Part shown: positions 1,277 through 60,562 of the stretch, piece by piece
Position numbering within the stretch: the first letter of the stretch is position 1
How the letters are laid out: the number at the start of each line of letters is the position of its first letter
DNA from: Nonlabens xiamenensis
GTDB lineage: Bacteria > Bacteroidota > Bacteroidia > Flavobacteriales > Flavobacteriaceae
DNA: 64,000 bases
Reading direction: 5' to 3'
Assembly: GCF_003865345.1 (NCBI RefSeq)
Contig: NZ_RMVE01000002.1
Coordinates: forward strand, 682,001 to 746,000
Position numbers and translations under genes: made by a program
The notes under the pieces: generated by a model
Told to the model about the DNA's origin: nothing
What the model saw: the letters and a program-made list of their open reading frames with translations, nothing else
Database searches by the model: none

Positions 1277-2752
1277 GTGTCTTCATCCCAAATTTTGTTA
1301 ACCATTGCTGCCTACTTTGCTGTGTTGGTGGCTATTTCATTTGTCGTAGGTCGCAAAGGTGATAGCGCTACCTTCTTTAGAGGAAATCGATCCTCTCCCT
1401 GGTTTGTGGTCGCATTCGGTATGATTGGAGCTTCCTTGAGCGGAGTGACCTTCATCTCGGTTCCAGGAGCGGTAGAGGAAGGCGCAATGAATTATTTTCA
1501 GGTGGTACTGGGATATGTGCTGGGGTATCTTGTAATCGGCACCGTACTCTTGCCATTATATTACCGTAAAAACCTGACCTCTATATATTCCTATCTGGAA
1601 GAACGCTACGGCTCGGCCGCACAAATTACGGGTTCCAGCTTTTTTATTTTGTCCAGGATAGTCGGTGCAAGTTTTCGATTATATCTGGTAGCGGGAGTAT
1701 TACAAACTTTTGTCTTTGAACAAATGGGGGTAGAATTTTGGCAGACGGTCACATTTACCGTATTGTTGATCTGGCTGTACACCTTTAAGTCTGGTATCAA
1801 AACAATTGTTTGGACGGATACCCTTCAAACTCTTTTTATGCTATTGGCCGTGGGTGTAGCCATATACTACGTAGCCCAAAGCATGGACCTCAACGGATTT
1901 GGTGAGCTCACTGATTTTATTGCGGAAAGTCAATATTCTCAAATCTTCTTTTTTGACGATTGGAAAAGCGGGCAATATTTTTTCAAGCAGTTTTTATCTG
2001 GCGCGTTTATCGCCATTGTGATGACTGGTCTGGATCAGGATATGATGCAGAAAAACCTGACTTGTCGAAGTCTGGGTGACGCACAGAAAAACATGTTTTG
2101 GTTCACCATTGTTTTGACGATTGTCAATTTGGTGTTTCTAGGACTAGGGGTATTATTAACCGCTTTCGCGAAAGCGGAACAAATTACTGCCAACAAGGAT
2201 CAATTGTTTCCCGCAATCGCCCTGGACCAAAATCTGGGTATTGGTTTAGGACTGTGTTTTATATTAGGACTGGTGGCTGCGGCCTATTCCAGTGCAGACA
2301 GTGCGTTGACCTCTCTGACCACTTCTTTCTCTGTCGATTTGTTGGACCTTGAAAAAAAATATAATCAGCAACAGCAACAAAGGATTCGCAAATGGGTTCA
2401 TGTAGGCTTTTCTCTTGTACTGATTGGTGTGATCGTGGGTTTTGAATATTTGATCAAGGATGACAGTGTGATCAACAAATTGTTTCAGTTTGCTGGATAC
2501 ACCTATGGTCCATTACTAGGGTTATTTGGTTTTGGAATATTGACCAAGAGAAGACTTCATCATTGGGCAACCCCCATCATTGCGATATGTTCGCCATTTT
2601 TAGCCTACGGAATTAGCGTCTGGGCCATGGCTGCCTATGAATTTGAATTTGGCTTTTTTATACTGTTGGTCAACGGTGCCTTATGCTTTTTGGGACTGTT
2701 TATAGCGTCCCTGTTTCAGCCACATTCTAATACTGACGTGTCCCCAGCATAA
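1277..2752 (+). CDS. Sodium:solute symporter (SSS family)
   Basis: A 491-residue polytopic inner-membrane protein that starts at a GTG; no in-frame ATG is available upstream. About 13 hydrophobic segments and the SSS pattern (GRKGDSATFFRGNRSSPW near residue 25, GASLSGVTFISVPG near residue 57, YSSADSALTSLTTSFSVD near residue 340) place it in the Na+-coupled solute carrier family. The substrate cannot be read from sequence. No inner-membrane importer is seen inside the alginate locus that starts 1.8 kb downstream, so uronate import is possible but unproven. It carries one copy of the dispersed palindrome (TAFAKAEQ). Its 3' end overlaps the convergent CoA-binding gene by 26 bases. Confidence 0.9.
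   Translation: MSSSQILLTIAAYFAVLVAISFVVGRKGDSATFFRGNRSSPWFVVAFGMIGASLSGVTFISVPGAVEEGAMNYFQVVLGYVLGYLVIGTVLLPLYYRKNLTSIYSYLEERYGSAAQITGSSFFILSRIVGASFRLYLVAGVLQTFVFEQMGVEFWQTVTFTVLLIWLYTFKSGIKTIVWTDTLQTLFMLLAVGVAIYYVAQSMDLNGFGELTDFIAESQYSQIFFFDDWKSGQYFFKQFLSGAFIAIVMTGLDQDMMQKNLTCRSLGDAQKNMFWFTIVLTIVNLVFLGLGVLLTAFAKAEQITANKDQLFPAIALDQNLGIGLGLCFILGLVAAAYSSADSALTSLTTSFSVDLLDLEKKYNQQQQQRIRKWVHVGFSLVLIGVIVGFEYLIKDDSVINKLFQFAGYTYGPLLGLFGFGILTKRRLHHWATPIIAICSPFLAYGISVWAMAAYEFEFGFFILLVNGALCFLGLFIASLFQPHSNTDVSPA
2160..2177. repeat. Dispersed palindrome, copy 1 (18 bp)
   Basis: Perfect palindrome CCGCTTTCGCGAAAGCGG inside the sodium:solute symporter gene, where it is read as AFAKA. The outer pair C-G extends the common 16-bp form. 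Confidence 0.95.
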
Positions 2753-3089
2753 CCAGTGTACAAGCTACTTCAGGAAAGATACCATTCTCTTTCAACAGCT
2801 GTTGGAATTCAGGATTTTCCGTTCCCGGATTAAAGATCACGCGCTCTGGCCTCAGATTGAGGATATAATCATAATAAGAAACTTGTCTTTTGGGGTTTAA
2901 ATACAGCGTCACCGTATTGATATCAGTAAAAGGAACCATCTCTGTATGGATTTTTACGTCATCAACCACCCCTTCCCGCAGACCTATAGCTACAGTTTCT
3001 ATGTTGTTTTTGCGCAATCTATGAATGGCTATATTGGAATATCGCTCCACCTTAAGTGAGGCTCCCAATACCAAAGTTTTTTTGGACAT
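2727..3089 (-). CDS. CoA-binding domain protein (YccU-like)
   Basis: A small Rossmann-fold protein of the CoA_binding family. It shows KKTLVLGASLKVERYSNIAI at the N-terminus, a nucleotide-binding glycine turn and YCCU-type order, followed by NPKRQVSYYDYILNLRPERVIFNPGTENPEF. The family resembles the CoA-binding domain of succinyl-CoA synthetase; the biochemical role of the stand-alone form is not settled. I chose the ATG at 3089 (MSKKTLVLGAS); an in-frame ATG three codons earlier (3098) is also possible. The 3' end overlaps that of the symporter gene by 26 bases, tail to tail. Confidence 0.85.
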   Translation of the reverse strand: MSKKTLVLGASLKVERYSNIAIHRLRKNNIETVAIGLREGVVDDVKIHTEMVPFTDINTVTLYLNPKRQVSYYDYILNLRPERVIFNPGTENPEFQQLLKENGIFPEVACTLVMLGTRQY

Positions 3090-3136
3090 TTTTATCATTT
3101 AAGCTGTAACAATATACAAAATGTATCGTCTTTTAA

Positions 3137-3170
3137 TTGAAGGAAGTGATAAAGCCTTCTGATTTATTTG
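3137..3170 (+). promoter_or_regulatory. Candidate promoter upstream of a possible orphan small RNA
   Basis: TTG at 3137-3139 followed after 23 bases by TTTATTTG at 3163-3170, one mismatch from the Bacteroidota -7 pattern TAnnTTTG. It points toward the hairpin at 3256-3283 rather than directly toward a coding region. Confidence 0.3.
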
Positions 3171-3176
3171 GTAATT

Positions 3177-4582: not shown

Positions 4583-4607
4583 GGTGACCAAACTGGTCAA
4601 CCAATTT
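4579..4607 (+). promoter_or_regulatory. UxuR/ExuR-like operator, site A
   Basis: A 29-base element whose core AAACTGGTCAACCAATTT (4590-4607) matches 15 of 18 positions of the E. coli UxuR/ExuR consensus AAATTGGTATACCAATTT. The whole 29-base block matches 24 of 29 positions of the element in front of gntR (23736-23764, opposite strand). The TGGT-N2-ACCA heart is typical of FCD-type GntR regulators of hexuronate genes, so the GntR protein at 22999-23718 is the likely binder. Confidence 0.65.
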
Positions 4608-4643
4608 TTTGCTTTATCCGATCGACACCACTCCTTTTTGCCC

Positions 4644-6869
4644 ATGAAAAAACTATTGCTCGTATTATTGCTTTGCTGCTGCGTCTCCTGTCAAAAAAAA
4701 TCAAATGATGAAGTCAAAAAGGACTCGACATCTTCAGAGAATGATGCATCGCCCCAACTCTTGTTAACCAAGAGCGGCATTGAAGCTTTTAGACAATCAG
4801 ATGCAGCACTCTTGAACAATTCTACCAATGAATTAAAGCGTCAAGTGAACCGTATCCTTAAGGACGCTATAAATATTCCCTTACCCAAAGACGCTGGTGG
4901 AGGATACACTCATGAACAGCATAAAAAGAATTACGCTTCATTATATCAGCTGGCTATCTCCCACAGATTAACTGCTGACAGTACTACATTGGCTTATATC
5001 AAAAAGATGTTGAAAGGCTATGCTGATCTTTATCCGCAGTTACCCCTTCACCCTAAAGCCAAGGAAAATCATCCCCCAGGAAAATTGTACTGGCAAGGTC
5101 TTAACGAGGCGGTTAGTCTCTTTTATATCATACAGGCTTATGACCTGAGCAGGGAGTTTATGACGCCAGAAGAACGCAAGCATGTAGAGGATAACCTACT
5201 TCGGCCCATGGCCGATTTTCTGAGCGTGGACAGCTACGACATATTTAATAAAATCCATAACCACGGGACTTGGTCAGTGGCTGCCGTTGGCATGACCGGT
5301 ATGGTTTTAAAAGATGACGACATGGTTGAGCGGGCCATAAGAGGATCCAATAAAGACGCCAAGACTGGATTCCTGGCCCAATTGGACCAATTATTTTCTG
5401 CAGATGGTTTCTATGCTGAAGGTCCGTACTACCATCGTTATGCGATTTTACCGTTTATCGCTTTCGCGAAAGCGATCCAACAAAACCGCCCAGAGGAACA
5501 AATATTTAGCTACCGTGACAGCATCCTCCAAAAGGCGGTCAAAACCTTGCTACAATTGACCGACGAGCAAGGAAGGTTTTACCCCATCAACGACGCGATT
5601 AAAAGTAAAACCTGGGATTCCCCCGAAGTTTTATTTGCCACAAATATTGCCTATGCAGCTTATGAAGACCCAACTCTGTTACCAGTGATCAAACATATGG
5701 GAAAGGTTTCCTTTACCGATGCTGGTGCACAGGCCGCTGCAAACATTAATTCAGAAACGCCCATCGTCTATGACCGACCCAGCCAAGTCATCAGGGATGG
5801 CGTTGAAGGTAATAAAGGAGGAATTGCCCTCTTAAGAAGTCCGCAATTTGGAAGCGGACAACTACAGGCCGTATTCAAATTTTCTACCCAGGGCATGGGT
5901 CATGGGCATTTTGATCGATTAAGTCTTTCCGTATATGACCATGGGGAGGAGATCATCCCAGACTACGGCGCAGCCCGTTTCTTGAACATAGAGGCTAAAC
6001 GTGGCGGCAGATACTTACCAGAAAATAAATCCTATGCCAGACACAGTATTGCCCATTCTACGGTTGTCCTCAATGAACGATCTCACTACAACGCCCAAGT
6101 TGAAAACTCTGAAGACCATGCTTCCATTTTAGTAGATGCCCAAGTTCAATCGGATAGATGGCAAAGCGTGACCGCAATAGACAGTACCGCCTACGATGGT
6201 AGTGATTTAAAACGCAGCTTGGTCATGATCAACGATAGCAGCATCACCCATAGACCTTTTATTATTGATTTTTTTGAAGTTACCGCTGAGGAAAAAACGA
6301 GCATGGATCTTAACTATCCTTTCGAGGGGGATATTATTCACACTGGATTTGACTACACCAGGCCTTTAGAAAAAGAAATTTTGGGCGTGCAAGATGGGTA
6401 TCAACATTTGGAAGTGCTGGCAAAAGGCCAGCCCAAGGACGGGACAAATTTCATTAAGTTTACTTTCTTACAAGCCGGGAGGTTCTATACGATTAGCAGT
6501 TTGACAGATCAGAACACCGAAATACGTCTCACCCAAACTGGCGCCCTGGACCCAGAATTTAACCTGAATAGTCAACGCCATTTACTGCTTCGACAAACCG
6601 ACAAGGTCCATCACAATTTTGTAACGATTATTGAACCACACGGTTTTTTTGACCCGATCAATGAAACAGTTGGCCAACCAGAACCTACAATCCGTGGATT
6701 GAGTTACGAACGTCAAGGCAACGTTGACATTGTTAGTTTTGAGGCTGATGGAAAAACCTATCTTTATGTAAAAGTTAGAGAAAATGATCGCCTAAAAAAT
6801 CACCGTATTAACTATAACAAAAAAACATACACTTGGGAAGGACCTAAGTATTTAATCAAGATACCATGA
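4644..6869 (+). CDS. PL17 oligoalginate lyase (heparinase II/III-type), lipoprotein
   Basis: A 741-residue lyase predicted to cut alginate oligomers exolytically to unsaturated monouronate. It starts at the ATG at 4644, which gives a clean lipoprotein signal MKKLLLVLLLCCCVSC; the longer frame from GTG 4584 would overlap the operator. An N-terminal alpha/alpha barrel carries KIHNHGTW (Asn206, His207) and EGPYYHRY (Tyr262/263), and the C-terminal heparinase II/III domain carries GHGHFD (His420/422). These match the catalytic Asn/His/Tyr/His set known from PL17 enzymes. It leads the operon and overlaps kdgF by 4 bases. A palindrome copy encodes AFAKA near residue 273, right after the Tyr motif. 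Confidence 0.92.
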   Translation: MKKLLLVLLLCCCVSCQKKSNDEVKKDSTSSENDASPQLLLTKSGIEAFRQSDAALLNNSTNELKRQVNRILKDAINIPLPKDAGGGYTHEQHKKNYASLYQLAISHRLTADSTTLAYIKKMLKGYADLYPQLPLHPKAKENHPPGKLYWQGLNEAVSLFYIIQAYDLSREFMTPEERKHVEDNLLRPMADFLSVDSYDIFNKIHNHGTWSVAAVGMTGMVLKDDDMVERAIRGSNKDAKTGFLAQLDQLFSADGFYAEGPYYHRYAILPFIAFAKAIQQNRPEEQIFSYRDSILQKAVKTLLQLTDEQGRFYPINDAIKSKTWDSPEVLFATNIAYAAYEDPTLLPVIKHMGKVSFTDAGAQAAANINSETPIVYDRPSQVIRDGVEGNKGGIALLRSPQFGSGQLQAVFKFSTQGMGHGHFDRLSLSVYDHGEEIIPDYGAARFLNIEAKRGGRYLPENKSYARHSIAHSTVVLNERSHYNAQVENSEDHASILVDAQVQSDRWQSVTAIDSTAYDGSDLKRSLVMINDSSITHRPFIIDFFEVTAEEKTSMDLNYPFEGDIIHTGFDYTRPLEKEILGVQDGYQHLEVLAKGQPKDGTNFIKFTFLQAGRFYTISSLTDQNTEIRLTQTGALDPEFNLNSQRHLLLRQTDKVHHNFVTIIEPHGFFDPINETVGQPEPTIRGLSYERQGNVDIVSFEADGKTYLYVKVRENDRLKNHRINYNKKTYTWEGPKYLIKIP
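5457..5476. repeat. Dispersed palindrome, copy 2 (20 bp)
   Basis: Perfect palindrome ATCGCTTTCGCGAAAGCGAT in the PL17 gene, read as AFAKA. The two outer pairs (A-T, T-A) differ from copy 1 yet remain complementary. Confidence 0.95.
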
Positions 6870-7234: not shown

Positions 7235-7242
7235 AACACATC

Positions 7243-8004: not shown

Positions 8005-8022
8005 TCAAAACAACTTTAAAAA

Positions 8023-11870: not shown

Positions 11871-12683
11871 TTAGCGTAATTCGATGATTTTAAAATCGGC
11901 AAACTTTACTTGTTCATCCCTTAACTGATGGGCATGTTTAAGACCGCGATAAATGCCCCATTTGGGACGTAGAAATCTAGCTTCATCTTTCCACATACGC
12001 AAATCTTGTTGATAAGTCAGTAATTTTCGGTTGTCCCGCTTTCGCGAAAGCGTCACTTCCAGCCTCCCGTCTTCACCAAATAAGATCTTTTCTTCCACAT
12101 GAATCCACTCCCCCAGAAAGTCGGCCATATCCTGTCGCACGAGGGTTTGTTGTTGATCAGCACTAGCATACCGCAACTCAAAACTTTGGCGATCAGATTT
12201 ATCCCGGAGCGTAAAAGTGAGGTTGGGCATATTTTCCTGAGGGCCGCCAACTGCCTTGATTTGATGGATATGAGTAAACGCTGCACTGGCTTGAAAATCA
12301 CGGTCCAGTTTAAAGTCCCAGGAATAGTGATGGGTTTCACCTGCTGTTCCCAGAGTTGATGCTGGAGAAGGTCCGTAGGTTTTTATTTCAGTGCGTTGTT
12401 TGTCAAAACGCTTGCACCGATCTGAATCCTTTTCTACATGTGCATGAAAAACAAATACGTCCTTATCTAATTCCGAATCGTACACTTGGGTGATATGTGC
12501 ACCAAAGGAAGGATGACTGCAGTCACTTACCTCTACTACATTGTGACCCGGAGCAAGTATTTCATTGATCAAGTCGTAAGTATTTACGGATGCATCGGCT
12601 TCCAGATAAGTAACAACGCCAACGGCTCTATCCTGTTGAAATAATAAGGATAGAGCCGTGATGGGAAGCAGTATGTACTTCAT
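11871..12683 (-). CDS. Beta jelly-roll polysaccharide lyase-like protein (PL7/PL14/PL20-like clan)
   Basis: A 270-residue exported protein (MKYILLPITALSLLFQQ-type signal). Family-like motifs in order are DKQRTEIKTYGPSP (a basic/acid strand like R-x-E-x-R of PL7), HIHQIK (compare QIH of PL7), and KWGIYRGL near the C-terminus. This order fits the alginate/glucuronan lyase jelly-roll clan, but I cannot fix the family; glucuronan-type (PL20-like) is possible. It is followed after one base by the esterase gene. A palindrome copy lies in it in the rare phase, giving LSRKR. Two Cys residues (CSHPSF and RCKRF regions) could form a disulfide. Confidence 0.65.
   Translation of the reverse strand: MKYILLPITALSLLFQQDRAVGVVTYLEADASVNTYDLINEILAPGHNVVEVSDCSHPSFGAHITQVYDSELDKDVFVFHAHVEKDSDRCKRFDKQRTEIKTYGPSPASTLGTAGETHHYSWDFKLDRDFQASAAFTHIHQIKAVGGPQENMPNLTFTLRDKSDRQSFELRYASADQQQTLVRQDMADFLGEWIHVEEKILFGEDGRLEVTLSRKRDNRKLLTYQQDLRMWKDEARFLRPKWGIYRGLKHAHQLRDEQVKFADFKIIELR
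12037..12052. repeat. Dispersed palindrome, copy 3 (16 bp)
   Basis: Perfect palindrome CGCTTTCGCGAAAGCG in the jelly-roll lyase gene. It is the only copy read in the third phase (LSRKR). Confidence 0.95.
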
Positions 12684-15772: not shown

Positions 15773-18181
15773 TTACTTTTTTAATTCTTTTTGAATAATT
15801 CCAATTTCTTGTTGATCGGCTCCTCCTTTAAATAGGTCAGAACCTTCTTTAGCCATAAAAAAATCTGTATCCTCCCATCTGGGATTATAGCGATCGAGAT
15901 TGATTTCTTGCGCATCTCCCGATACTTTTACCCTTCCGCTATTATAAACTACCGTATGCTGAATCTTTTGATTTTCTCCCTTCAGATGGACGATGCTTGT
16001 TGTAGCTCTCGAATTGTCAATTACAGAATTGCGGATCATAGCATTCTGGATGCCTCTCACCTCGATGATTCGACCTTTGGGAGAGTCATCTACCCGATAG
16101 AATACACAATGATCGATCAACAAATTACCGCCCGATGAGCCTGGTTCTTCTCCAGTTCTTAGATAATTGATCGCAAATTCCTCAATATCAGCAAATGAGC
16201 TGTTATAAAGATAAATATATTCTGCATTATATTTTCCTACCCCATCTTTTTGATACGACAGATTCAAACCGCGGTAAGCATTTTTTATTCTAGAGTTTTT
16301 GATAGAAATAGTATCGGCTTTGGTACCTTCATAAGCCTTAAATACTGCACCTCCATCTGTATTGGTAAAATCCAAAATATCGACCTGGTCCAAGAAAAGA
16401 CTATAAGGGACATTTCCAGTTCCATTGGGTGAGGAGATGGCATATTTTACCGCACCGGTTTGGTGACTACCTACCAACGTGAGATTGTCCAAACTCAGGG
16501 ATGGCGCACCTTCCATCCTGAACATGTACTGTGGTGCATTTTCGGCATTCGGACTCACCTTAATTATTGATTTGCCTCTTCCAGCGCCTTTTATGGTCAA
16601 TTCATTGCTCAACTTGTTCCCCTTGGTCAGCAAGTACTCACCCTCCTCCAGCAGGATAGTTGTAGGACCTACGGAATTCTTTATGGCTTTTTCCAAGGTT
16701 TTTTCTCCAGGAGCTATCTTGACTTCCACGGGTTGGATATCCTGATCCATATTGCGTAAGTCTGAAATTTTCAAATAACTTACCCCAGCTTGTGAAGTCA
16801 AAGCCAAGGGTGGCTTTGGGTTTCCTGGTACCACGGCACCTGCTCTAATTTGGGATCTAAAAGTTCCACTGGCGTCCACCCTTACCTTTGGTTTGGTGGT
16901 AACTCCTGCCAGCTTTTCATCATCAGTCCTGGACGGGACCGGGATCCCGTTAGGTTCTTCCATATTGTATTGGACACTGCTGACGCCGTCGTGGTCCTGA
17001 ATAAGCGTTGGATTCACAATATTACCTTCTATGCGTATACCAGAGATATCCCCAACCACTTCTAGGGCCATATTACGCTCAGTACTATAAAATAAGTTAT
17101 TGGCAAATACCGTATTCTCAGGAGCTGCAGTAGCATTGTCCCTGGTGTTAATCGCTAGGGAGACCGGTGAACTATTGACAATGGTATTGTTTTGCATCAC
17201 TCCATCAATGACCTGATCGTATTCATTCAACTCGGCATTAGGAATTCCATTCATGATACACAGCGGCGCTCGATAGCCGTCACCTTTCACACCTATGATG
17301 ATATTGTTTTGAACAATATTCCCTTTATTGATCATACGTATACCACCAGTATTAGGATTGTTATTTCCAATAATCAGGTTACCTTCCACAAGGTTGTAGT
17401 CTCCATGCCTTAGGGTGATGGTCCCCTCGCTTTCCAGGATCAAATTATTTCGTACAATATTGTTGGCCGATTTGATCGATATGATTTCGATTTCTCCATT
17501 ACATTTTTCGAAGAAATTATTTTCCACAATGGTTTTAGAGGATTGTTTGGAATACTGTGAAGTCCCAATCCTAATTGTTTCCCCTCCATTAAATCCCAGT
17601 GGAATGCGTTCACCAAAGTAATTGTGATCGATCTGGTGCTGGTTGTCGACAGATTCCTTTAACCGAACAGCAACCACGGGTCCTTTATTGAGTTTCCCTT
17701 GAAATACGCAGTGATCCAATCTATTCCCTTTTCCGTGCAGGGAGACATAATAACTGGTTAAATCGCGTTGTTGGGGTCCTACATTAATGACTGCACAATT
17801 GGTGACCCTGCTATAGCGTGCAGGTGTATCGGAATCGGCTTCAAATCGTATGACATGGCTGTCTCCTGGATCACCACCATCAAACCAAAGACCGTGGACC
17901 TCCAAATAATCACCCCCCAACCTCAAGGTTGAACTTCCAGTAAGTTTTACTTCTCCAGGTGTTTGTGATCTTAAGACTATGGGCTTTTCAGACGTTCCCA
18001 TCGCCTTGAACTTAATATTTACATCTTTCCATTGTCCATCCTTCATCACGATGGTGTCACCAGGCTGGGATTTTTTGATGGCTTGCTTCAATTCCTGAGC
18101 ATTGTTCACAGGGATATTTTGCGCTTTCGCGAAAGCGAAACACAATACAAACCAGATCACGATGTACAAATATTTTTTCAT
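15773..18181 (-). CDS. PL6 alginate lyase (two-domain, chondroitinase B-like)
   Basis: An 802-residue secreted parallel beta-helix enzyme. The N-terminal helix domain carries the PL6 catalytic pair: Lys237 in EIISIKSANN and Arg258 in TITLRHGDYN. Their spacing of 21 residues equals that known for AlyGC (Lys220/Arg241). The upstream FNGGETIRIG and NGEIEI stretches hold the acidic Ca2+ ligands expected in the family. The second half (about residue 480 onward) is another beta-helix domain, as in full-length AlyGC-type enzymes. It should cut alginate, often at guluronate. The signal peptide ends AFAKA-Q, and this AKA cleavage site is encoded by a palindrome copy. It is followed at 4 bases by the IPT gene. 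Confidence 0.92.
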   Translation of the reverse strand: MKKYLYIVIWFVLCFAFAKAQNIPVNNAQELKQAIKKSQPGDTIVMKDGQWKDVNIKFKAMGTSEKPIVLRSQTPGEVKLTGSSTLRLGGDYLEVHGLWFDGGDPGDSHVIRFEADSDTPARYSRVTNCAVINVGPQQRDLTSYYVSLHGKGNRLDHCVFQGKLNKGPVVAVRLKESVDNQHQIDHNYFGERIPLGFNGGETIRIGTSQYSKQSSKTIVENNFFEKCNGEIEIISIKSANNIVRNNLILESEGTITLRHGDYNLVEGNLIIGNNNPNTGGIRMINKGNIVQNNIIIGVKGDGYRAPLCIMNGIPNAELNEYDQVIDGVMQNNTIVNSSPVSLAINTRDNATAAPENTVFANNLFYSTERNMALEVVGDISGIRIEGNIVNPTLIQDHDGVSSVQYNMEEPNGIPVPSRTDDEKLAGVTTKPKVRVDASGTFRSQIRAGAVVPGNPKPPLALTSQAGVSYLKISDLRNMDQDIQPVEVKIAPGEKTLEKAIKNSVGPTTILLEEGEYLLTKGNKLSNELTIKGAGRGKSIIKVSPNAENAPQYMFRMEGAPSLSLDNLTLVGSHQTGAVKYAISSPNGTGNVPYSLFLDQVDILDFTNTDGGAVFKAYEGTKADTISIKNSRIKNAYRGLNLSYQKDGVGKYNAEYIYLYNSSFADIEEFAINYLRTGEEPGSSGGNLLIDHCVFYRVDDSPKGRIIEVRGIQNAMIRNSVIDNSRATTSIVHLKGENQKIQHTVVYNSGRVKVSGDAQEINLDRYNPRWEDTDFFMAKEGSDLFKGGADQQEIGIIQKELKK
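18122..18137. repeat. Dispersed palindrome, copy 4 (16 bp)
   Basis: Perfect palindrome CGCTTTCGCGAAAGCG at the end of the PL6 signal peptide, read as AFAKA and supplying the A-x-A cleavage site. Confidence 0.95.
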
Positions 18182-23861: not shown

Positions 23862-24518
23862 CTATATCTGACAGGCCTTTGCCGTTTGCACCGCTTGTCG
23901 AATGTCCATCGCCAAACCATGAAAATCACCATCAGCGATTTTTTTCTTGTCAAATAATTGGCTGCCCATACCTACACAATTCACACCTGCTTTAAACCAG
24001 GCGCCCATCGATTCTTTGGTAGGCTCAATACCACCCGTGGGCATGATGGCCAGATCGGGCAGGACGGATGCTACCGCTTTCGCGAAAGCGGGCCCCACCA
24101 CATTAGCAGGAAATATTTTAATCATTTGACAACCCGCGTTTTTGGCGGTGATCGCCTCTGAAATGGTCGCGATTCCAGGAATATAGGCCAAATTACAGGT
24201 TGCAGCATAACGAGCCAATTCGTCCACCCAACCGGGTGAAACCATAAATTGTGCACCAGCGGCAACAAATCCAGTCGCGGTATCCACGTCAAATAAAGTG
24301 CCCACCCCTAAACATAGATCTGAATAGTCATGGAAATGTTTAACTGCCCTAGTAAAACTTTCCAAACCATTGTCTCCACGATTCACAAATTCGAAAATGC
24401 GTACACCAGCGTCGTAAGAGGCTTGGATGGTTTGAATAACCACTTCAATATCCGAATGGTAAAACACAGGAACAATCTTATGTTGCTGTGTCAGTTCTAT
24501 AAATTGTTTGGTTTCCAT
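23862..24518 (-). CDS. kdgA: KDPG/KHG aldolase
   Basis: A 218-residue class I aldolase of the Eda/KdgA family. Glu43 in RIFEFVNRGD and the Schiff-base Lys134 in QMIKIFPANVVGP are present, as is the phosphate-binding MPTGGIEPT. It splits 2-keto-3-deoxy-6-phosphogluconate to pyruvate and glyceraldehyde-3-phosphate, the last step of alginate monomer catabolism. The start codon overlaps the kdgK stop by one base (TAATG), so the two are translationally coupled. A palindrome copy encodes AFAKA just after the catalytic strand. Confidence 0.93.
   Translation of the reverse strand: METKQFIELTQQHKIVPVFYHSDIEVVIQTIQASYDAGVRIFEFVNRGDNGLESFTRAVKHFHDYSDLCLGVGTLFDVDTATGFVAAGAQFMVSPGWVDELARYAATCNLAYIPGIATISEAITAKNAGCQMIKIFPANVVGPAFAKAVASVLPDLAIMPTGGIEPTKESMGAWFKAGVNCVGMGSQLFDKKKIADGDFHGLAMDIRQAVQTAKACQI
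24074..24091. repeat. Dispersed palindrome, copy 5 (18 bp)
   Basis: Perfect palindrome CCGCTTTCGCGAAAGCGG in kdgA, read as AFAKA. Confidence 0.95.
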
Positions 24519-25687: not shown

Positions 25688-26524
25688 ATGCAGGATTTCC
25701 TATCGTTTTTTGAAACCATGCCCTTTTGGCAAAAGTTGACATGGGTAGCTGGCCTACTCACCTTGTTCTGGATACTGGAGACTGGGTTCGCTTTCGCGAA
25801 AGCGAAAAACACACCACATTCCAATCGTTCCAAATGGCAACATGCAGGTACCAACCTGGTATTCTTGGTCATGATTTCCTTGATCAATATAGGATTTGGA
25901 AGATTGTTGCTTTGGGTGGATCAACTGACCGACACGCAACATTGGGGTTTATTTTCTATGTATAAAGCCCCCATGTGGCTAGATTTGGTGGTGGCACTGG
26001 TCTTGCTGGATTTAATTTCTCAATATCTGGCGCATGTTATGTTGCACAAATTCCCCTGGTTCTGGCGACTACATATCGTCCACCACAGTGATACCCATGT
26101 GGACGCTACTACGGGTACACGTCAACATCCCATTGAGTTTGCTATGCGGGAAAGCCTCTCGCTGCTAACCATCCTGTTTACAGGTATGCCTATTGCTTTT
26201 TATCTATTTTATCGGATACTAACTATATTCTTTACGTACTGGACCCACGCAGACATACGGCTTCCGAAACGCTTGGACCGCGCTTTGTCCTATATTATAG
26301 TCACACCGGCCATGCACAAATTTCATCACCACCACGAGATGCCATGGACGGACACGAACTTTGGGAATGTACTCTCCATTTGGGACAGAATGTTTGGCAC
26401 ATTTGTCTATGAAAATGCAGATGATGTGGTTTACGGCGTTGATATTATTGACAACGATAGAAATAACGATGTTCTCTACCAGCTCAAAGCTCCATGGAAC
26501 CGGCATATCAAATGGAAAAAATAA
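25688..26524 (+). CDS. Fatty acid hydroxylase/sterol desaturase family membrane protein
   Basis: A 278-residue inner-membrane protein with about four to five hydrophobic segments and the eight-histidine di-iron pattern of the family: HVMLH, then HIVHH, and later HKFHHHH. Such enzymes hydroxylate or desaturate lipids, carotenoids or sterol-like compounds using O2. The bacterial substrate is unknown. It is a single gene, divergent from kdgK and not obviously part of the alginate locus. The palindrome copy in its N-terminal region (ETGFAFAKAKN) follows the first hydrophobic segment. Confidence 0.87.
   Translation: MQDFLSFFETMPFWQKLTWVAGLLTLFWILETGFAFAKAKNTPHSNRSKWQHAGTNLVFLVMISLINIGFGRLLLWVDQLTDTQHWGLFSMYKAPMWLDLVVALVLLDLISQYLAHVMLHKFPWFWRLHIVHHSDTHVDATTGTRQHPIEFAMRESLSLLTILFTGMPIAFYLFYRILTIFFTYWTHADIRLPKRLDRALSYIIVTPAMHKFHHHHEMPWTDTNFGNVLSIWDRMFGTFVYENADDVVYGVDIIDNDRNNDVLYQLKAPWNRHIKWKK
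25787..25806. repeat. Dispersed palindrome, copy 6 (20 bp)
   Basis: Perfect palindrome TTCGCTTTCGCGAAAGCGAA in the fatty acid hydroxylase-family gene, read as AFAKA. The outer pairs T-A, T-A differ from copies 1 and 2 but keep symmetry. Confidence 0.95.
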
Positions 26525-31433: not shown

Positions 31434-32787
31434 CGGATAAAGATTTGGTCAATTTTTCAATTTCGATTCCTATATCACCCGCCCCCAACATCACCACTAA
31501 TCTATTCCCCATCTCTTCCACAAAGGCCTGTAGATCTTTTTTATCAACTACGGTCACGACTGCCGGCGGATTTTCATTCTGACTGATCATTAAAGACAAT
31601 ACAGCCGAGTCAATGCCCTCAATCGGCAGTTCCCTCGCCGGATAAATATCCAGTAAGCCCACGTTGTTAAATTGGGCCAGGGCCTGAGAAAATTCCTGCA
31701 TAAAATCACGGGTTCTACTGTATAAGTGAGGTTGAAAAATCACGGTAATTTCTTCCTCTGGATACATCTCACTTACGGCCTCATAAACGGCATTGATTTC
31801 TGTGGGATGATGAGCATAATCATCAATCAGTATGAACTCCGGAGTGTTTAATCTGTAAGTAAACCTCCTTGCCACACCGGGAAAAGTTGCAAGGGCCAGT
31901 CGTAAGGATTCTGGATCTGCACCGTACTCCAAAGCCACAGCCATCGCGAGCACGGCATTATTGAGGTTATGCCTACCAGGAAGCATTAACAAACAATTTT
32001 CAATCACACCTTGCGGCGTTTGAAGGTCAAAATGATACGTGCCATTCACTATACTCAAATTAAGCACCCGATATTTACCTCGATCGATGCCTACCTGAAT
32101 ACCATCCATTGGAACCTTTTCGTTGACTAACAATGTTTTTCCCTGCAATAGACCCGCAAAATCACGGAAAGTCTTTTCAAATTCGCTTACATCACCATAA
32201 ATATCCAAGTGATCTGCGTCTATGGCAGTGATACCAGCAATATCTGGATCCAGCTGCATAAAAGAGCGATCAAATTCATCGGCTTCTACAACCATCACAT
32301 CTGTACCTGAATACAAATAATTGGTTTGATAATCTTCCAGGATACCGCCCAAGAAAGCGGTGATCTTGTGACCACTCTGGTTCAACAGGTGCGCTAAAAT
32401 GGAGCTTGTTGTCGTTTTCCCATGCGTACCTGCAATAGCCAAACAGGTCATAGTTTTGGAAATTTGCCCTAACATTTGAGCGCGTTTCAGGATGGATATT
32501 CCGCTTTCGCGAAAGCGTAATAAAATATCCAATTCTTGCGGAATGGCAGGCGTAAAAATCACCTGAGCATTTTCTAGTTGTTTATACGCGTTAGGAATAC
32601 CGTCAAAATCATCTTTATACTGAACCTGAATACCTTCTTCTATCAGGTTTTGAGTGAGGTTGGACTCCACCCGATCATATCCAGCCACCTTTTTACCTTG
32701 TTGGTTTAAATATCTGGCCAGCGCACTCATACCAATACCGCCAATGCCGATAAAATAAAAGTGTGATATGTGCTGCAATTCCTTCAT
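31420..32787 (-). CDS. murC: UDP-N-acetylmuramate-L-alanine ligase
   Basis: A 455-residue Mur ligase adding L-alanine to UDP-MurNAc. The N-terminal [16 protein letters not shown] nucleotide fold, the ATP-binding [18 protein letters not shown]-loop, the [11 protein letters not shown] stretch with the catalytic Glu, and [10 protein letters not shown] are all present. It overlaps murG by 4 bases and ftsQ by 14. A palindrome copy gives RFRES between the first domain and the P-loop. Confidence 0.96.
32502..32517. repeat. Dispersed palindrome, copy 8 (16 bp)
   Basis: Perfect palindrome CGCTTTCGCGAAAGCG in murC, read as RFRES. Confidence 0.95.
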
Positions 32788-35062: not shown

Positions 35063-36424
35063 TTATAATCCTCTTACTGCGTTTTTAAATTGGCGTCCCC
35101 TGTCTTCATAATTATTAAATAGGTCAAAACTTGCACAAGCAGGACTCAACAATACGTTGTCGCCAGCCTCGGCGAGTTTGTAGGCCACCCTGACCGCATC
35201 TTCCATCGAACTAGTTTCTACCATCTGATCTACACAATTACCAAATGCTTCTACGATCCTGGAATTATCCGTTCCCAGACATACAATGGCTTTGACGTGA
35301 CGATTGACCAGGCTGTAGAGTTGGGTGTAATCATTTCCTTTATCTACACCGCCTACAATCCATACGGTAGGATGCTCCATACTGTCCAAAGCATAATAAG
35401 TGGCATTGACATTGGTGGCTTTAGAATCATTGATGTACTGGACCTTGTTGATTTTCAAAACATTTTCCAGACGATGTTCGACACCTTCAAATGAAGTCAA
35501 GCTTTGTCGAATAGTTTCCTTGCGGATCTTGAGCAATTTTGCAGCGGTTGAAGCTGCCATGGCATTGGCTGTGTTGTGTTTTCCTTTGACAGAAAGTTCT
35601 TGTTGGGGCATGTTAAATATGGTATTATGCGTGTAAATTGTAAGTTGATTGTCTTTTATGAATGCGCCTTGATCGAGCAGTTTTTCCATGGAAAAAGGCA
35701 CCAATTGGGCACGTGTAGGTTGGTTTTTTAGCGCTTTATTAATGGCAGGATCGTCCACATTGTAGATCAGATAATCCTGTTCGTCCTGATTCATCGTAAT
35801 CCTCATTTTACTGGCCACATACTTTTCAAATTTCCCATCATACCGATCCAAATGATCTGGTGTAATATTGAGAATGATCGCAATATGTGGTTTAAAGCTA
35901 TCAATACCGTCCAGCTGGAAACTACTCACCTCCAACAGTCTGTGGCTGGAAGGACCTTCGGCTACCTGCTCGGCAAAACTCTTTCCAATATTTCCTCCAG
36001 TGGTATGATCGAGATCGGCTGTATTTAAAATGTGATCGATCATGCGTGTGACCGTGGTTTTCCCATTGGCTCCAGTAACAGCAATGATGGTTTCATCGGT
36101 AAACCAGGAGGCAAATTCTACTTCTGAAATGATTGGAATACCTCGCTCAAGAATTTCTCTGACCAGTTGTATTGTATCTGGAATTCCTGGGCTTTTGACT
36201 ACCAGATCGGCTGCGAGTATCTGATCCATGCTGTGCTTGGCTGTTTCATAAGGTATAGCGTGGTTTTGTATCGCTTTCGCGAAAGCGGGATCTAACTGCC
36301 CTCCATCACTCAAGAACACCTCATACCCTTGCTGCTTTCCAAGAATAGCCGCTCCAACACCACTGATACCTCCTCCAAGGACCACAAGTTTTTTACCGGT
36401 ATGTTGTTGATCTACCTGCATCAA
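35063..36424 (-). CDS. murD: UDP-MurNAc-L-Ala:D-glutamate ligase
   Basis: A 453-residue Mur ligase adding D-glutamate. Visible are the N-terminal [14 protein letters not shown] fold, the P-loop [24 protein letters not shown] and the C-terminal [22 protein letters not shown] block typical of MurD. The frame starts MMQVDQQ; the second Met is equally possible. It overlaps mraY by 4 bases. A palindrome copy gives AFAKA in the N-terminal domain ([11 protein letters not shown]). Confidence 0.96.
36272..36287. repeat. Dispersed palindrome, copy 9 (16 bp)
   Basis: Perfect palindrome CGCTTTCGCGAAAGCG in murD, read as AFAKA. Confidence 0.95.
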
Positions 36425-45221: not shown

Positions 45222-46198
45222 TACTGTAGCGGTTTATATTTTGATTTATTGAAAAGACTTTCAGCATCGAGACTAATCATGGTTTCAAGATCCACAGGAT
45301 TGTTTTGCATAAAAGATTCCACAATCCGATACCCCATGTATCTACCTACTCCGCCGGGTGTTTGTTGATCTATCTCCAGATAGAATTTGGAAAAAGGAGC
45401 CGGCGCAATGAACCTGGGAATCAATCTTGAGTCCGTGTCATAGAGCATTTCTTTATCGATAAAATAGCGCCACATCTGCGACTCGTTTTCAACAGTGTAG
45501 TCAAATTTTGCTGGAGGGTAATCAAAAATATGATATCCAGCAGCCTCAGGAACAAACAGCGATTGTAGGTAATGAATTTTCCCAAAATAAACCATACTTC
45601 CCAAGAAGGTTCTATCCATTGTGGGTGGCACAAACAACCTAGCGTACTCCATAGCGACGTCTGCCGGCAATTGCTCCCGATTGAGCTGATTGCGCTGGTA
45701 ATTACTGATTCCCTGATAGAGTTCGTGATCTTTCCCCAGATATGTATCGATAGAAATAATGAGTTGATCCTTTGTAGGTATAATTTGCTGTCGATAATTC
45801 ACTTCCGAAATCACGGTATAAATATCAGTGGACTGAAAATCAGGAAAGTAATATTTGACATGCTTCATTACATCCTCGACTTCGCTCTCGATCGCAGTGT
45901 AATCAAATTCAGCGTTCTGAACGGCAGCCTCCAGAATGTTCTGAATCGAATCTTTTCCAGTCATCTTTGCCATCCAAACACTATCTGGCACCCTGGTAGA
46001 TATGAATACTGGATAATCCTTTTTGAGCTGTTCCAAATCTTCGACTTCTGCTTCTGCAAAAATTTTATGAAATGGAATTAATTCTACATCTACTGGAATG
46101 GCAGCTATCTCTGCCTCCACAGAATTGGAAGGTTGACAGGAAAGGATCGCTTTCGCGAAAGCGATACACACCAACAACCTGATCAACTTATCTTTCAT
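45221..46198 (-). CDS. gldB: Gliding motility lipoprotein GldB
   Basis: A 325-residue lipoprotein of the GldB family, required for gliding motility and linked to the T9SS machinery. The signal is MKDKLIRLLVCIAFAKAILSC with lipobox LSC. The palindrome encodes AFAKA inside the hydrophobic core, placing a Lys there, which is unusual for a signal peptide. Family stretches include FISTRVPDSVWMAKMTGKDS, YYFPDFQ and YMGYRIVESFMQNN. It precedes gldC, and nadE is divergent, an order seen in other Flavobacteriia. Confidence 0.93.
   Translation of the reverse strand: MKDKLIRLLVCIAFAKAILSCQPSNSVEAEIAAIPVDVELIPFHKIFAEAEVEDLEQLKKDYPVFISTRVPDSVWMAKMTGKDSIQNILEAAVQNAEFDYTAIESEVEDVMKHVKYYFPDFQSTDIYTVISEVNYRQQIIPTKDQLIISIDTYLGKDHELYQGISNYQRNQLNREQLPADVAMEYARLFVPPTMDRTFLGSMVYFGKIHYLQSLFVPEAAGYHIFDYPPAKFDYTVENESQMWRYFIDKEMLYDTDSRLIPRFIAPAPFSKFYLEIDQQTPGGVGRYMGYRIVESFMQNNPVDLETMISLDAESLFNKSKYKPLQ
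46146..46165. repeat. Dispersed palindrome, copy 10 (20 bp)
   Basis: Perfect palindrome ATCGCTTTCGCGAAAGCGAT inside the gldB signal peptide, read as AFAKA. The full 20 bases are identical to copy 2. Confidence 0.95.
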
Positions 46199-49778: not shown

Positions 49779-50088
49779 GGACGGACAATAATTTTGACGG
49801 CTTCAAAAATAGCAAACTACCAGCGTCTTTCTGGTTTTCCTGCGTCAAGACTGCAAAATATAGTGATTATACCCATGCATAACCAGGCAAATTTCATTTC
49901 GCTACTGACCAGCTCTATTTTTAAAAACAGAAGATATCAGTGCAGTGATTCCGCTTTCGCGAAAGCGGAAAACCCTGCCGGCCTCTATGAAAGTTAACTG
50001 CGTGGTACAATTATTTAAAAAACAGAATGAACGGATCTTCCCTTGCTCATTCATCAAGTATCATCCCAATTGATGACCCTTCACTATG
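49779..50088. other. Gap between dnaG and the outer-membrane protein gene
   Basis: 310 bases without a credible gene. It holds the dnaG promoter region (a perfect minus-strand TATTTTTG at 49811-49804, with no TTG at the right distance) and the longest palindrome copy (49949-49970). The one reading frame across it (49794-49997) has no family features. Confidence 0.6.
49949..49970. repeat. Dispersed palindrome, copy 11 (22 bp, intergenic)
   Basis: The longest copy: the 16-bp CGCTTTCGCGAAAGCG is extended symmetrically by TTC on the left and GAA on the right. It is the only copy outside a gene. Confidence 0.95.
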
Positions 50089-58048: not shown

Positions 58049-58834
58049 CTAGAGACTTTTAGTCCTACCGCCATCCACGGGTAAATTGATACCGTTGATA
58101 TAACCCGCCAGCGGACTCGCCAAAAAAAGTATCGCGTGAGCAATTTCCTCAGGTTCGGCAAATCGTCTGGCTGGAACACTGTTCTTCATCGCCTGGGCGG
58201 CATCTTCTTCAGAATGACCTGATCTGGTCGCTTTACCCGTGACAATTTTATCCAATCGATCCGTCGCTGTAAAGCCGGGCAACACATTATTGACCGTAAT
58301 ACCGTGAGGTCCTAATTCTGTTGCCAGGGTTTTTGACCAGCTGGCCACTGCTCCTCTGATTACGTTGGACACACCCAAAAATTCGATCGGCGCCTTTACA
58401 CTCGTGGAAATCACATTAATGACCCTGCCGTAACCTGAACGCTTCATTCCTTCCAGACAAGCTTTTAATAAAACCTGGTTACATTTTACGTGTTGATCAA
58501 ATCCTTTCTGCAGGGATTCAACCTCAGCCTCTATCAAGTGCCCCGGAGGTGGACCACCAGTATTATTGACCAAAATGTGGATAGGGTTCGCTTTCGCGAA
58601 AGCGGTTACCACAGACTCCACCTCATTTACATCGTTAAAATCAGCTACCAAATAGGTATGATCATGACGGTGACTGCGATCCAGCTCGTTCAGCACTTCC
58701 TGTAATTTATTGGGGTTGCGGGCCAAAAGGATGACCCGGGCTCCAGACGCTGCAAAAGCCAGCGCAGTTGATTTTCCTATACCAGTACTGCTTCCACAGA
58801 CTAGTGCTGTTTTATCTTTCAAATTGATTTCCAT
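58049..58834 (-). CDS. Short-chain dehydrogenase/reductase
   Basis: A 261-residue SDR. The cofactor motif CGSSTGIG is near residue 13, NNTGG near 90, the catalytic Ser in NVISTSV, and the Y/K pair appears changed: the expected YxxxK region reads VSNVIRGAVASWSKTLA, with no Tyr and no Lys at the usual spacing, which is like a small subset of atypical SDRs. The start at 58834 (MEINLKDKTALV) fits the fold; the 18-residue longer frame does not. Substrate unknown. A palindrome copy gives AFAKA near residue 79. Confidence 0.85.
   Translation of the reverse strand: MEINLKDKTALVCGSSTGIGKSTALAFAASGARVILLARNPNKLQEVLNELDRSHRHDHTYLVADFNDVNEVESVVTAFAKANPIHILVNNTGGPPPGHLIEAEVESLQKGFDQHVKCNQVLLKACLEGMKRSGYGRVINVISTSVKAPIEFLGVSNVIRGAVASWSKTLATELGPHGITVNNVLPGFTATDRLDKIVTGKATRSGHSEEDAAQAMKNSVPARRFAEPEEIAHAILFLASPLAGYINGINLPVDGGRTKSL
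58589..58604. repeat. Dispersed palindrome, copy 12 (16 bp)
   Basis: Perfect palindrome CGCTTTCGCGAAAGCG in the SDR gene, read as AFAKA. Confidence 0.95.
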
Positions 58835-58948
58835 ATGACGAAAATAACAAATTCGGTAGTTTAAGCACAACTGGATAACCAAAGTCATGCGGACAATGCC
58901 AGCTGATCAAGACTTGGCTTTTTTTAAGGCTTAACCTCCGATTATAAT

Positions 58949-58956
58949 TACCTTTG
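58949..58956 (+). promoter_or_regulatory. Candidate -7 box of map
   Basis: TACCTTTG, an exact TAnnTTTG, 16 bases before the map ATG; the leader would be about ten bases. No TTG at the usual spacing. Confidence 0.45.
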
Positions 58957-58972
58957 CGCTTTTGCTAAAACT

Positions 58973-59785
58973 ATGATCGTCACTAAAACAAGCGAAGAAC
59001 TGGAAATCATGCGTCGTGCTGCCTTGATGGTAAGCAAAACGCTGGGAATGATTGCTGCCGAAATCAAACCAGGCGTTACTACACTGCAATTGGACACCCT
59101 GGCCGAAGAATATATCAGAGACCACGGAGCCATTCCTGGATTTAAAGGATTGTATGATTGCCCCAGCACCCTGTTGATTTCACCTAATGAAGAAGTGGTC
59201 CATGGTATTCCTAAGGAGGTCGCCATCAAGGAAGGAGACGTACTTTCCATAGATTGTGGTGCCATCGTTGACGGGTTTTACGGTGACCATGCCTACACCT
59301 TTACAGTAGGTGATGTGCCACAGGAAACCCAAGAACTCTTAGATCGTACTAAACAGAGTCTGTATGTAGGAATTGAACAATTTAGAAAGGGCAACCGAGT
59401 AGGTGATGTAGGCTATGCGATACAGCAATATTGTGAGTCATTTGGCTACGGAGTCGTCAGGGAATTGGTAGGCCACGGATTGGGAAGGGTCATGCACGAA
59501 GATCCCCAAATGCCCAATTACGGCAAAAGAGGACGAGGCAAAAAATTTATAGAAGGAATGACCGTTGCCATCGAACCCATGATCAACCTGGGTACAAAAA
59601 GCATCAAACATCATCCAGACGGTTGGACCATTACTACCAGAGACAAAAAACCAAGTGCACATTTTGAGCACAATGTAGCTTTGGTTGACGGAGAGCCCAG
59701 ACTGCTCAGCACCTTTGATTACATCTATGAAGTATTGGGAATCACCAGTGATGAAGAAGATCCTTACCGCTGGAAGGAGCAATAA
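58973..59785 (+). CDS. map: Methionine aminopeptidase, type I
   Basis: A 270-residue enzyme that removes the N-terminal Met from nascent proteins. The five metal ligands are recognisable in order: Asp in VLSIDCGAIVDG, Asp in GFYGDHAYTF, His in LVGHGLGRVMHEDP, Glu in VAIEPMINLG, and Glu/His in AHFEHNVALVDG. It lacks the N-terminal zinc finger extension. The methyltransferase gene follows after 6 bases and is likely cotranscribed. Confidence 0.96.
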   Translation: MIVTKTSEELEIMRRAALMVSKTLGMIAAEIKPGVTTLQLDTLAEEYIRDHGAIPGFKGLYDCPSTLLISPNEEVVHGIPKEVAIKEGDVLSIDCGAIVDGFYGDHAYTFTVGDVPQETQELLDRTKQSLYVGIEQFRKGNRVGDVGYAIQQYCESFGYGVVRELVGHGLGRVMHEDPQMPNYGKRGRGKKFIEGMTVAIEPMINLGTKSIKHHPDGWTITTRDKKPSAHFEHNVALVDGEPRLLSTFDYIYEVLGITSDEEDPYRWKEQ

Positions 59786-59791
59786 ATTAGG

Positions 59792-60562
59792 GTGAAAAAG
59801 CTATTCAAATACATATTGAACCTTATCCCGCGGCCATGGCTGATCCAGTTGAGTTATTTAGTCAGGCCGTTACTGGCATGGTGGTATAAAGGTGATCGCT
59901 ATCAGGATCCGATTGACGGTAAAGAGTTTAAAAGCTTCTTGCCTTATGGCTATGGACAAATGCGTGACAATGTATTGTCGCCCTCCACACTTTCATTGGA
60001 AAGACACCGTTTGCTTTGGTTATATCTGAAGCAGCAAACAGATCTCTTTACCCGCTCCCAGAAATTATTGCACTTTGCACCAGAACAATGTTTTTATCAT
60101 CGCTTTCGCGAAAGCAAAAATATTACTTATACCACGACAGACTTAAATTCTCCGCTAGCCGATGTAAAGGCGGATATTTGCGCGTTGCCCTTTGCTGATA
60201 ATGAGTTTGACTTCATTCTCTGCAACCATGTGCTGGAACATATCCCTGATGACCAAAAAGCGATGGTAGAAATCTACCGCGTACTCAAACCAGGTGGGAC
60301 GGCGATTCTCCAAATTCCGCTGGATGCAGATCGGGAGGAGACATTTGAAGATCCCAGCATCACAGATCCAGTTGAACGCGCCCAGATATTTGGTCAATAT
60401 GATCACGTTAGGGTGTATGGTATGGATTATTTTGACAAGTTGGATCGCGTAGGGTTCCATGTAGACGCGGTTGATTACACCAGTGAATTAGGCGCCAAAT
60501 TGGTAGATCGCTACCGATTAGCACCGGGCGAGCTGATCCCAGTGGTCAAAAAAGTTATTTGA
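59792..60562 (+). CDS. Class I SAM-dependent methyltransferase
   Basis: A 256-residue protein that starts at GTG (59792), 6 bases after map. A hydrophobic, basic N-terminus of about 35 residues comes first, then a Methyltransf_11-like domain: LHFAPEQ, the acidic ADICALPFADNEFDFILCNHVLEHIPD (motif II region), and LKPGGTAILQIP. Substrate unknown; hits of this type often act on lipids, quinones or glycans. A palindrome copy encodes HRFRES next to the SAM-binding start. Confidence 0.88.
   Translation: MKKLFKYILNLIPRPWLIQLSYLVRPLLAWWYKGDRYQDPIDGKEFKSFLPYGYGQMRDNVLSPSTLSLERHRLLWLYLKQQTDLFTRSQKLLHFAPEQCFYHRFRESKNITYTTTDLNSPLADVKADICALPFADNEFDFILCNHVLEHIPDDQKAMVEIYRVLKPGGTAILQIPLDADREETFEDPSITDPVERAQIFGQYDHVRVYGMDYFDKLDRVGFHVDAVDYTSELGAKLVDRYRLAPGELIPVVKKVI
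60102..60115. repeat. Dispersed palindrome, copy 13 (14-bp core)
   Basis: Core GCTTTCGCGAAAGC in the methyltransferase gene, read as RFRES. The next outer pair is broken (C/A). Confidence 0.93.

Follow-up and report, generated by a model that had tools for sequence, protein, structure and literature searches.

A highly iterated 14-bp palindrome of Nonlabens and two related genera as a possible DNA uptake sequence

Hundreds of copies of an exact 14-letter palindrome, GCTTTCGCGAAAGC, occur in the genomes of Nonlabens xiamenensis and other Nonlabens, and the evidence strongly supports their maintenance by selection at the DNA level or by an equivalent drive. Judged by its likeness to known systems, the chances are about even that this palindrome forms the unvarying center of an element that a protein binds and that would serve, as DNA uptake sequences do, to mark DNA as self. 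The first-pass annotation, which noticed the repeat in the window (the whole 64-kb stretch of DNA that was analyzed), had proposed a genome-wide count against expectation and a comparison with relatives. The whole 3.68-Mb genome holds 553 copies where about 0.009 are expected, far above chance, and none of the same letters read backwards.

An exact recount confirmed the 13 perfect copies reported for the window; the 13 sites had been correctly recognized, but their starts were placed 0 to 4 bases too low. One hundred dinucleotide shuffles of the window yielded no copy, and a scan allowing one mismatch added none. The lone two-mismatch copy, at 40830, is near the chance level (0.17 matches expected at two mismatches or fewer), and all 13 TTCGCGAA 8-mers of the window lie within copies of the 14-mer. 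As first described, the coding sites fall in all three codon phases. Eight, in phase 0, encode AFAKA: those in a sodium:solute symporter gene (2162..2175), an alginate lyase/heparinase-like gene (5460..5473), a chondroitinase B-family gene close to the N-terminus (18123..18136), the open reading frames 23862-24518 on the minus strand (24076..24089) and 25688-26524 on the plus strand (25790..25803), murD (36273..36286; named, like ftsQ, from the dcw gene order), gldB close to the N-terminus (46149..46162), and the minus-strand frame 58049-58888 (58590..58603). Three, in phase 1, encode RFRES: those in ftsQ (30993..31006, FRES), in murC, a Mur ligase by Pfam (32503..32516), and in the plus-strand frame 59792-60562 (60102..60115). 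One, in phase 2 of the minus-strand frame 11871-12683 (12038..12051), encodes LSRKR, and one is intergenic and lies upstream of dnaG, the primase gene (49953..49966). All are exact matches.

Abundance of the palindrome is confined, among the sampled genomes, to Nonlabens (Flavobacteriaceae) and two other genera. The other Nonlabens genomes carry 288 to 857 copies each (22/22), and the two further motif-rich genera, found among 397 Flavobacteriaceae examined, have 408 (G234) and 857 (G250); all remaining sampled genomes have 0 to 19. Density in the motif-rich genomes is 132 to 251 per Mb (0.13 to 0.25 per kb). Exact copies greatly outnumber those with one mismatch in Nonlabens (12,573 versus 1,869, or 15%, in the 20 more complete of 23 genomes), whereas one-mismatch copies are commoner in G234 (128 versus 408 exact). 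The share of decayed copies is larger outside the motif-rich genomes: g163, a genus related to Nonlabens, g209, and g225, has few and mostly decayed copies (15 exact versus 37 with one mismatch), and six other genomes have 69 exact versus 35 one-mismatch copies. Islands compared with Nonlabens stretches gave 38:10 versus 183:11 with one-mismatch copies only (P 0.002) and P 6e-6 with two-mismatch copies added, which in Nonlabens are near the chance level. The 20-kb dcw stretches of 18 plus 6 motif-less genomes hold no comparable repeat, with one exception, in a search that a low-density motif could escape; the exception is a local repeat in the dcw stretch of Ulvibacter (L068). Neither the 14-mer nor a 16-mer was found in the related literature examined.

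Conservation at orthologous sites carries the case for selection on the DNA. The murC site is exact in 21/21 Nonlabens and in G234, with one mismatch in G250; the murD site is exact in 21/21 Nonlabens, and the ftsQ site is found only in the window genome among the 21. Sites retain their codon position between orthologues (21/21 for both murC and murD). Across nine dcw genes of the 21 Nonlabens, a single codon is used throughout at only 42 of 1,747 invariant-residue positions, a count that includes the site codons. That the 14-mer is nonetheless exact in 21/21 at murC and murD strongly supports DNA-level selection or an equivalent drive, in line with the original argument that protein need cannot explain the repeat; the sites appear to set the protein sequence where they are located. 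The copying process offered with that argument was not borne out. Four of the five dcw coding sites (murC, murD, ftsQ, and ftsI) align without gaps among Nonlabens, and flanks differ; the sites thus arise by substitution rather than insertion. The fifth, in ftsZ, lies within a variable linker, and some other genera have single extra residues next to the murC and ftsQ sites. The shared murC site argues for its common ancestry. Our dcw tree was rooted at its midpoint, and Nonlabens, g209, and g225 may or may not form one clade.

Spacing of the sites is more regular than random. Gaps below 1.5 kb number 0/99 on the genome's own contig C5 (21.8 expected), 4/60 in G004 (20.6), 4/64 in the stretches of the complete relative G002 (19.9), and 3/80 in one run of G234 (14.5); the short runs of G234 alone, with 9 gaps, are not significant (P 0.14), and this genome has close pairs at 911 bp (L360) and 623 bp (near 3.08 Mb). 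That 12 of 13 sites lie in genes is true of the window, where 1/13 is non-coding, but it is not general. In the G002 sample of 20 stretches of 20 kb, 34 of 83 sites fall in the intergenic 11% of the DNA, a 5.5-fold enrichment (30 to 34, depending on the shortest open reading frame accepted), and 49 lie inside genes. Non-coding DNA likewise holds 13 of 87 sites in 6% of the sequence at 20 dcw loci, and 10 of 20 in 9% in G250 and G234 together. The tests of strand and of origin-to-terminus distribution that had been proposed gave, for the G002 sample, no gene-orientation bias and no terminus gap or terminus limit (83 sites, variance/mean 0.62, one 20-kb stretch every 195 kb, with the origin assumed near parB).

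Around the 14-mer core extends a longer element, of roughly 45 to 75 bp, whose T/G-rich left flank and A/C-rich right flank show no complementarity beyond chance. Flank consensus differs between genera: A occupies position -2 in 17/26 cases in G250 (13 sites) versus 33/166 in G002, and G234 has a weak consensus, with 64% C at -1.

Among the roles suggested in the first-pass annotation, that of an uptake-like sequence fits best, by analogy with the USS of Pasteurellaceae and the DUS of Neisseriaceae, whose hallmarks (PMC1626085, in extract) are matched and favor this reading: exact copies far in excess of one-mismatch copies, regular spacing, a preference for non-coding DNA with many sites in genes, origin by substitution, stability across species, clade limits, and dialects. 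With the USS (AAGTGCGGT and ACAAGCGGT types) the element also shares a strict core with AT-rich flanks, and 65% of USS are in coding regions (PMC1626085, in extract), as are 49/83 sites in G002. USS differ in being 9 bp long and oriented, at about 1 per kb, with a one-sided flank and a measured uptake preference, whereas the Nonlabens element is a 14-bp palindrome with two-sided flanks, known here from sequence. The DUS (GCCGTCTGAA and dialects) are similarly clade-specific, and one-mismatch copies add 21% in Kingella oralis (PMC3630211, in extract) versus 15% in Nonlabens; unlike the element they are oriented, lack a flanking motif, reach about 1 per kb (up to 5,918 copies in 2.4 Mb), and have a known receptor, ComP. 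Counting against the uptake reading, both systems have short (9- to 10-bp), oriented cores that lack palindromic symmetry and recur about once per kb.

If the element works in this way, a receptor on the surface or in the periplasm, probably homodimeric, would bind it during natural transformation, fragments bearing it would enter and recombine more often, and biased uptake together with selection for uptake could build and repair sites. Transformation in Riemerella columbina, which its authors assign to the Flavobacteriaceae, favors DNA of the same species (PMC7965970, in extract), and the transformable Flavobacteriaceae studied are without pilus homologues (PMC8459023, in extract). The latter source also describes two R. 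anatipestifer competence genes, of which likely counterparts are present as judged by Pfam domain and adjacency alone. DUF5689 occurs in 30/30 genomes, and in 21/21 checked genomes a barrel gene is adjacent to it or close by (a short frame in G065), with or without the motif. This operon was rejected as the determinant of the motif, being equally present in motif-less genera and giving trees (quick ones, with a long-branch warning for the barrel) without a motif-only group. No receptor for the element was found, nor any published uptake experiment on Nonlabens in the literature examined. In favor of uptake, two related Nonlabens phages without an annotated integrase carry no copies in 35.7 kb each, where at least 4.7 would be expected at Nonlabens density. 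Against it stand the sites in some viral contigs bearing phage structural genes (among the matches listed) and, in G234, the weak flanks, commoner one-mismatch copies, and close pairs.

We give slightly less than even credence to a fuller version of the uptake reading, also drawn by analogy, in which this would be the first DNA uptake sequence from the Bacteroidota and the first with palindromic symmetry. It would tag self DNA in Nonlabens and two relatives, would be bound by a receptor that acts as a dimer within the pilus-free Flavobacteriaceae uptake machine, and would be strong enough to change amino acids in essential enzymes, MurC among them; its flanks would form dialects from genus to genus, with a presumed loss in g163. 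To our non-exhaustive knowledge, no uptake sequence has been described before that is palindromic or from the Bacteroidota. As of 2006, such sequences were known in Pasteurellaceae and Neisseriaceae only (PMC1626085, in extract). If the reading is true, an independent palindromic uptake sequence in another phylum would provide a test of how uptake sequences evolve, with the element as a sequence handle toward the receptor of the pilus-free machine. Whether tag or chromosome site, the murC copy is a case of a DNA signal that appears to set protein sequence.

The spacing, conservation, and decay of the sites would also fit an intracellular protein that binds the chromosome, for instance a dimeric nucleoid protein of these genera that binds every 4 to 7 kb and sets loops, domains, or division control. 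The palindrome with its two-sided flanks suggests a dimer, and the even distribution, deep positional conservation, and copy-free phages also accord with such a role, which we consider unlikely but worth serious attention; it would make this the densest such system known to us. Noc-binding sites, parS, SlmA sites, and matS are palindromes of 12 to 16 bp spread on the chromosome in tens of copies with an origin-terminus bias, whereas the Nonlabens element has hundreds of copies, no terminus gap in the G002 stretches, and no Noc paralogue. ParB or Noc is an unlikely reader of the element: 12 of 13 motif-rich genomes encode a single ParB, without a second of Noc type, and the extra ParB of G019 is a 616-amino-acid type found also in genomes with few copies. 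Changed ParB specificity was rejected, as motif-bearing G234 keeps the helix-turn-helix recognition region of motif-less genomes; two compared Nonlabens differ there at two positions. No parS-like sequence lies in the 20 kb around parB of G000, G002, or G234, and one in G234 (L137:19055) is far from parB. Moreover, so strict a consensus is unusual among intracellular binding proteins (PMC1626085, in extract).

Other explanations fare worse. HIP1 of cyanobacteria (GCGATCGC), first named as the closest analogue, is also a highly iterated, GC-rich palindrome, and an orphan methyltransferase recognizing part of the Nonlabens palindrome could in principle build sites through methyl-directed repair or selection. 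HIP1, however, has 8 bp, about 500 to 2,500 copies per Mb, and a tie to GATC and CGATCG methyltransferases (PMC4390886, in extract). None of the three methyltransferase classes searched by Pfam is conserved among 13 motif-rich genomes (6 lack PF00145, 5 lack PF01555, and 9 lack PF02086; G010 lacks all three), and TCGCGA outside the 14-mer is unenriched (95 copies in 855 kb, versus 104 predicted by base composition). In palindromes of the HIP1 class deviations avoid the center and prefer the ends; of 11 one-mismatch copies in the Nonlabens samples, 4 vary at end positions and 7 elsewhere. Neither HIP1 as the closest analogue nor, for the three classes searched, the suggested methylation role is upheld, and we regard a HIP1-like origin as improbable. 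Near-identical copies at genome scale recall a selfish or copied REP/RAYT-like element that inserts itself, which is very improbable for gap-free dcw sites that are old and fixed in position, for 49/83 G002 sites within genes, and for flanks that pair no better than chance. Least probable of all is a role as promoter, terminator of transcription, or RNA hairpin: perfect palindromes are able to fold, but most sites lie in genes, both in G002 and in the window, the 33 intergenic G002 sites with both neighbors favor neither convergent nor divergent gene pairs (++ 12, -- 10, -+ 6, +- 5), and the sequence that follows the palindrome is rich in A and C rather than T, whichever strand is read.

Counting confirmed the 13 exact copies of the palindrome GCTTTCGCGAAAGC that the first-pass annotation had reported in the window; all of them exist, and their codon phases were correct on recheck, but the starts given were 0 to 4 bases too low. 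Among near-matches, the window has a single two-mismatch copy and no one-mismatch copy. The whole genome contains 553 copies, vs about 0.009 expected from base composition, and the 14-mer spelled backwards, a control, is absent from it. All 22 other Nonlabens genomes carry 288 to 857 copies each. Outside the genus, 36 genomes of the same family or order were counted: 35 have none and G033 has 6. At least one match occurs in 80 of 397 Flavobacteriaceae genomes; more than 19 copies were found only in Nonlabens and in two motif-rich genomes of other genera, G234 (408) and G250 (857). In a scan of 395 Bacteroidota genomes, none outside Flavobacteriaceae had more than 1 copy.

The 14-mer is the core of a longer element. 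Among 83 sites in G002, a relative with a complete genome, C occupies position -1 in 93%, T position -4 in 78%, and T position -10 in 75%; C is depleted to about -30 in the left flank, and the right flank is its mirror image. The 34 intergenic sites have the same consensus, approximately ATTYC-core-GRAAT, equally strong or stronger, and the flanks are therefore no by-product of codons. An RNA stem was rejected, as left and right flanks of G002 sites show no covariation beyond chance. The G250 flank is a dialect of the element, with A at -2 in 17/26 half-sites vs 33/166 in G002; the G234 consensus is weak (14 sites).

Orthologous positions were compared across 20-kb loci of the division/cell-wall (dcw) cluster from 20 relatives and the window, 21 in all. 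The exact 14-mer is present in all 21 at the murC and murD sites, in 18 at the ftsZ site, which lies within a variable linker (one further locus has one mismatch), and in 13 at the ftsI site, where G013 has no sequence; the ftsQ site occurs in the window only. At the murC site, RFRES and the exact 14-mer are found in 21/21 Nonlabens and in G234, G250 has HFRES with one mismatch to the 14-mer, and the site is absent from 37/37 other rows, mostly other Flavobacteriaceae plus distant outgroups. The protein sequence there appears to be set by the DNA signal. In nine dcw genes, all sequences share a single codon at just 42 of 1747 invariant-residue positions, a count that includes the site codons. 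Site-bearing and site-less Nonlabens genes align without gaps at the murC, murD, ftsQ, and ftsI positions, so sites arise by substitution; in some other genera one additional residue adjoins the ftsQ or murC site. One Nonlabens murC (G015, L023/L024) is broken into two overlapping frames, either through misassembly or because this essential gene is frameshifted. Window positions 4584 to 22828 encode alginate lyase/heparinase, chondroitinase B, and TonB receptors, which suggest a polysaccharide-use locus adjoining the dcw cluster.

In runs that represent the first places among the matches listed, not whole genomes, gaps below 1.5 kb numbered 0/99 on contig C5 of the window's genome (21.8 expected; CV, 0.57; minimum, 1594 bp), 4/60 in another Nonlabens, G004 (20.6 expected), and 3/80 in the longer G234 run (14.5 expected), with P values of 0.01 for G250 and 0.14 for a short G234 run (9 gaps each). 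The 12 window gaps gave P 0.02. G002 stretches had 4/64 such gaps vs 19.9 expected, the smallest being 109 bp, and further close pairs lie 911 bp apart in L360 and 623 bp apart near 3.08 Mb of G234; close pairs, below expectation yet present, are thus depleted, not excluded. In G002, 34/83 sites are intergenic, a density 5.5 times that of coding DNA; the number drops to 30/83 if shorter ORFs are allowed. A 13.3-kb contig, G016:C2 (L354), has site contexts in mirror image and is apparently an inverted duplication.

PMC1626085 gives these hallmarks of the uptake sequences USS and DUS: a strong consensus, regular spacing without orientation bias, a preference for non-coding DNA, very long-term stability, origin by substitution, and restriction to particular families. 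Every one of these testable here is found in the palindrome element; orientation is a question that does not apply to a palindrome. According to PMC7965970, R. columbina is transformable and favours its own DNA, and its authors' k-mer count gave no clear motif. Because of the shared hallmarks and this preference for own DNA, we favour an uptake-sequence-like element, a reading to which we would give about an even chance. On the distributional tests made, the element behaves like USS/DUS; we do not file it as either, since two usual features differ (USS/DUS have an oriented core and a density near 1 per kb). The main rival, that a chromosome-organising protein binds the element, we consider rather unlikely. 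A Noc-like ParB was sought in the motif-rich genomes and not found, no ParB change in the compared sequences is common to them, and no terminus gap appeared in 20 G002 stretches, which hold 0 to 7 copies each; the sole empty one (L140) is mostly occupied by three ORFs of 1489 to 2120 aa. No conserved methyltransferase was found in motif-rich genomes within the three classes examined. The R. anatipestifer counterpart of a DUF5689 gene is essential for transformation, according to PMC8459023; the gene is present in 30/30 genomes, motif-bearing and motif-free alike, and a barrel gene adjoins or stands near it in 21/21 checked, with and without the motif. The palindrome lies about 120 to 200 bp upstream of this CarboxypepD_reg barrel gene, in a putative competence operon, in 8/9 Nonlabens and G250 (L364, L366, L369-L373, L381, L145).

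Copies are clustered in several other genera; G122, G131, G145, G204, and G259 all contain a pair with a spacing of 933 bp. Stretches from low-count genera have orthologous proteins in common, many 80 to 99% identical, and a Pfam scan of nine proteins from two of them identified heavy-metal resistance genes (RND pump, outer-membrane efflux, multicopper oxidase, P-type ATPase). This gene set, with many proteins at that identity, is common to at least eight Flavobacteriaceae genera (L120-L134; G131, G259, G122, G145, G245, G380, G390, G033) and bears both exact and decayed palindrome copies, which would point to a motif-rich genus as donor. We infer that the clustered copies came by transfer from motif-rich donors. 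Sixteen low-count stretches, chosen by exact copies and hence biased against detecting decay, contain exact, one-mismatch, and two-mismatch copies numbering 38, 10, and 8, compared with 183, 11, and 3 across 855 kb of Nonlabens DNA (P 0.002 for one-mismatch copies alone). Whole-genome counts agree with this greater decay: the exact and one-mismatch totals are 69 and 35 in six low-count genomes (G120, G330, G095, G033, G131, G259) and 15 and 37 in genus g163 (G188, G372), with about 0.4 one-mismatch copies expected by chance in G188, vs 12,573 and 1,869 in 20 Nonlabens genomes (per-genome ratio, 0.08 to 0.26). In a midpoint-rooted tree of concatenated dcw genes, the sister group of g163 is G234+G250, and we therefore take the g163 copies to be remnants of a system since lost. 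A second position in murC carries an exact site in G250 (L313) and, in G188, a sequence three mismatches off (L309), perhaps also a relic.

Two phages that infect a Nonlabens host (listed as Persicivirga), related to each other and both lacking an annotated integrase, have no copies in 35.7 kb each; among the matches listed, 2 or 3 copies occur on some IMG/VR contigs that encode portal, head, tape-measure, or integrase proteins. A separate 29-kb Nonlabens contig, G008:C2 (L356, L357), possibly a plasmid or phage, has 0 copies vs about 7 expected. In an uncultured Ulvibacter (L068:1-22145), a AATTGGGCC-containing repeat occurs several times within 22 kb.
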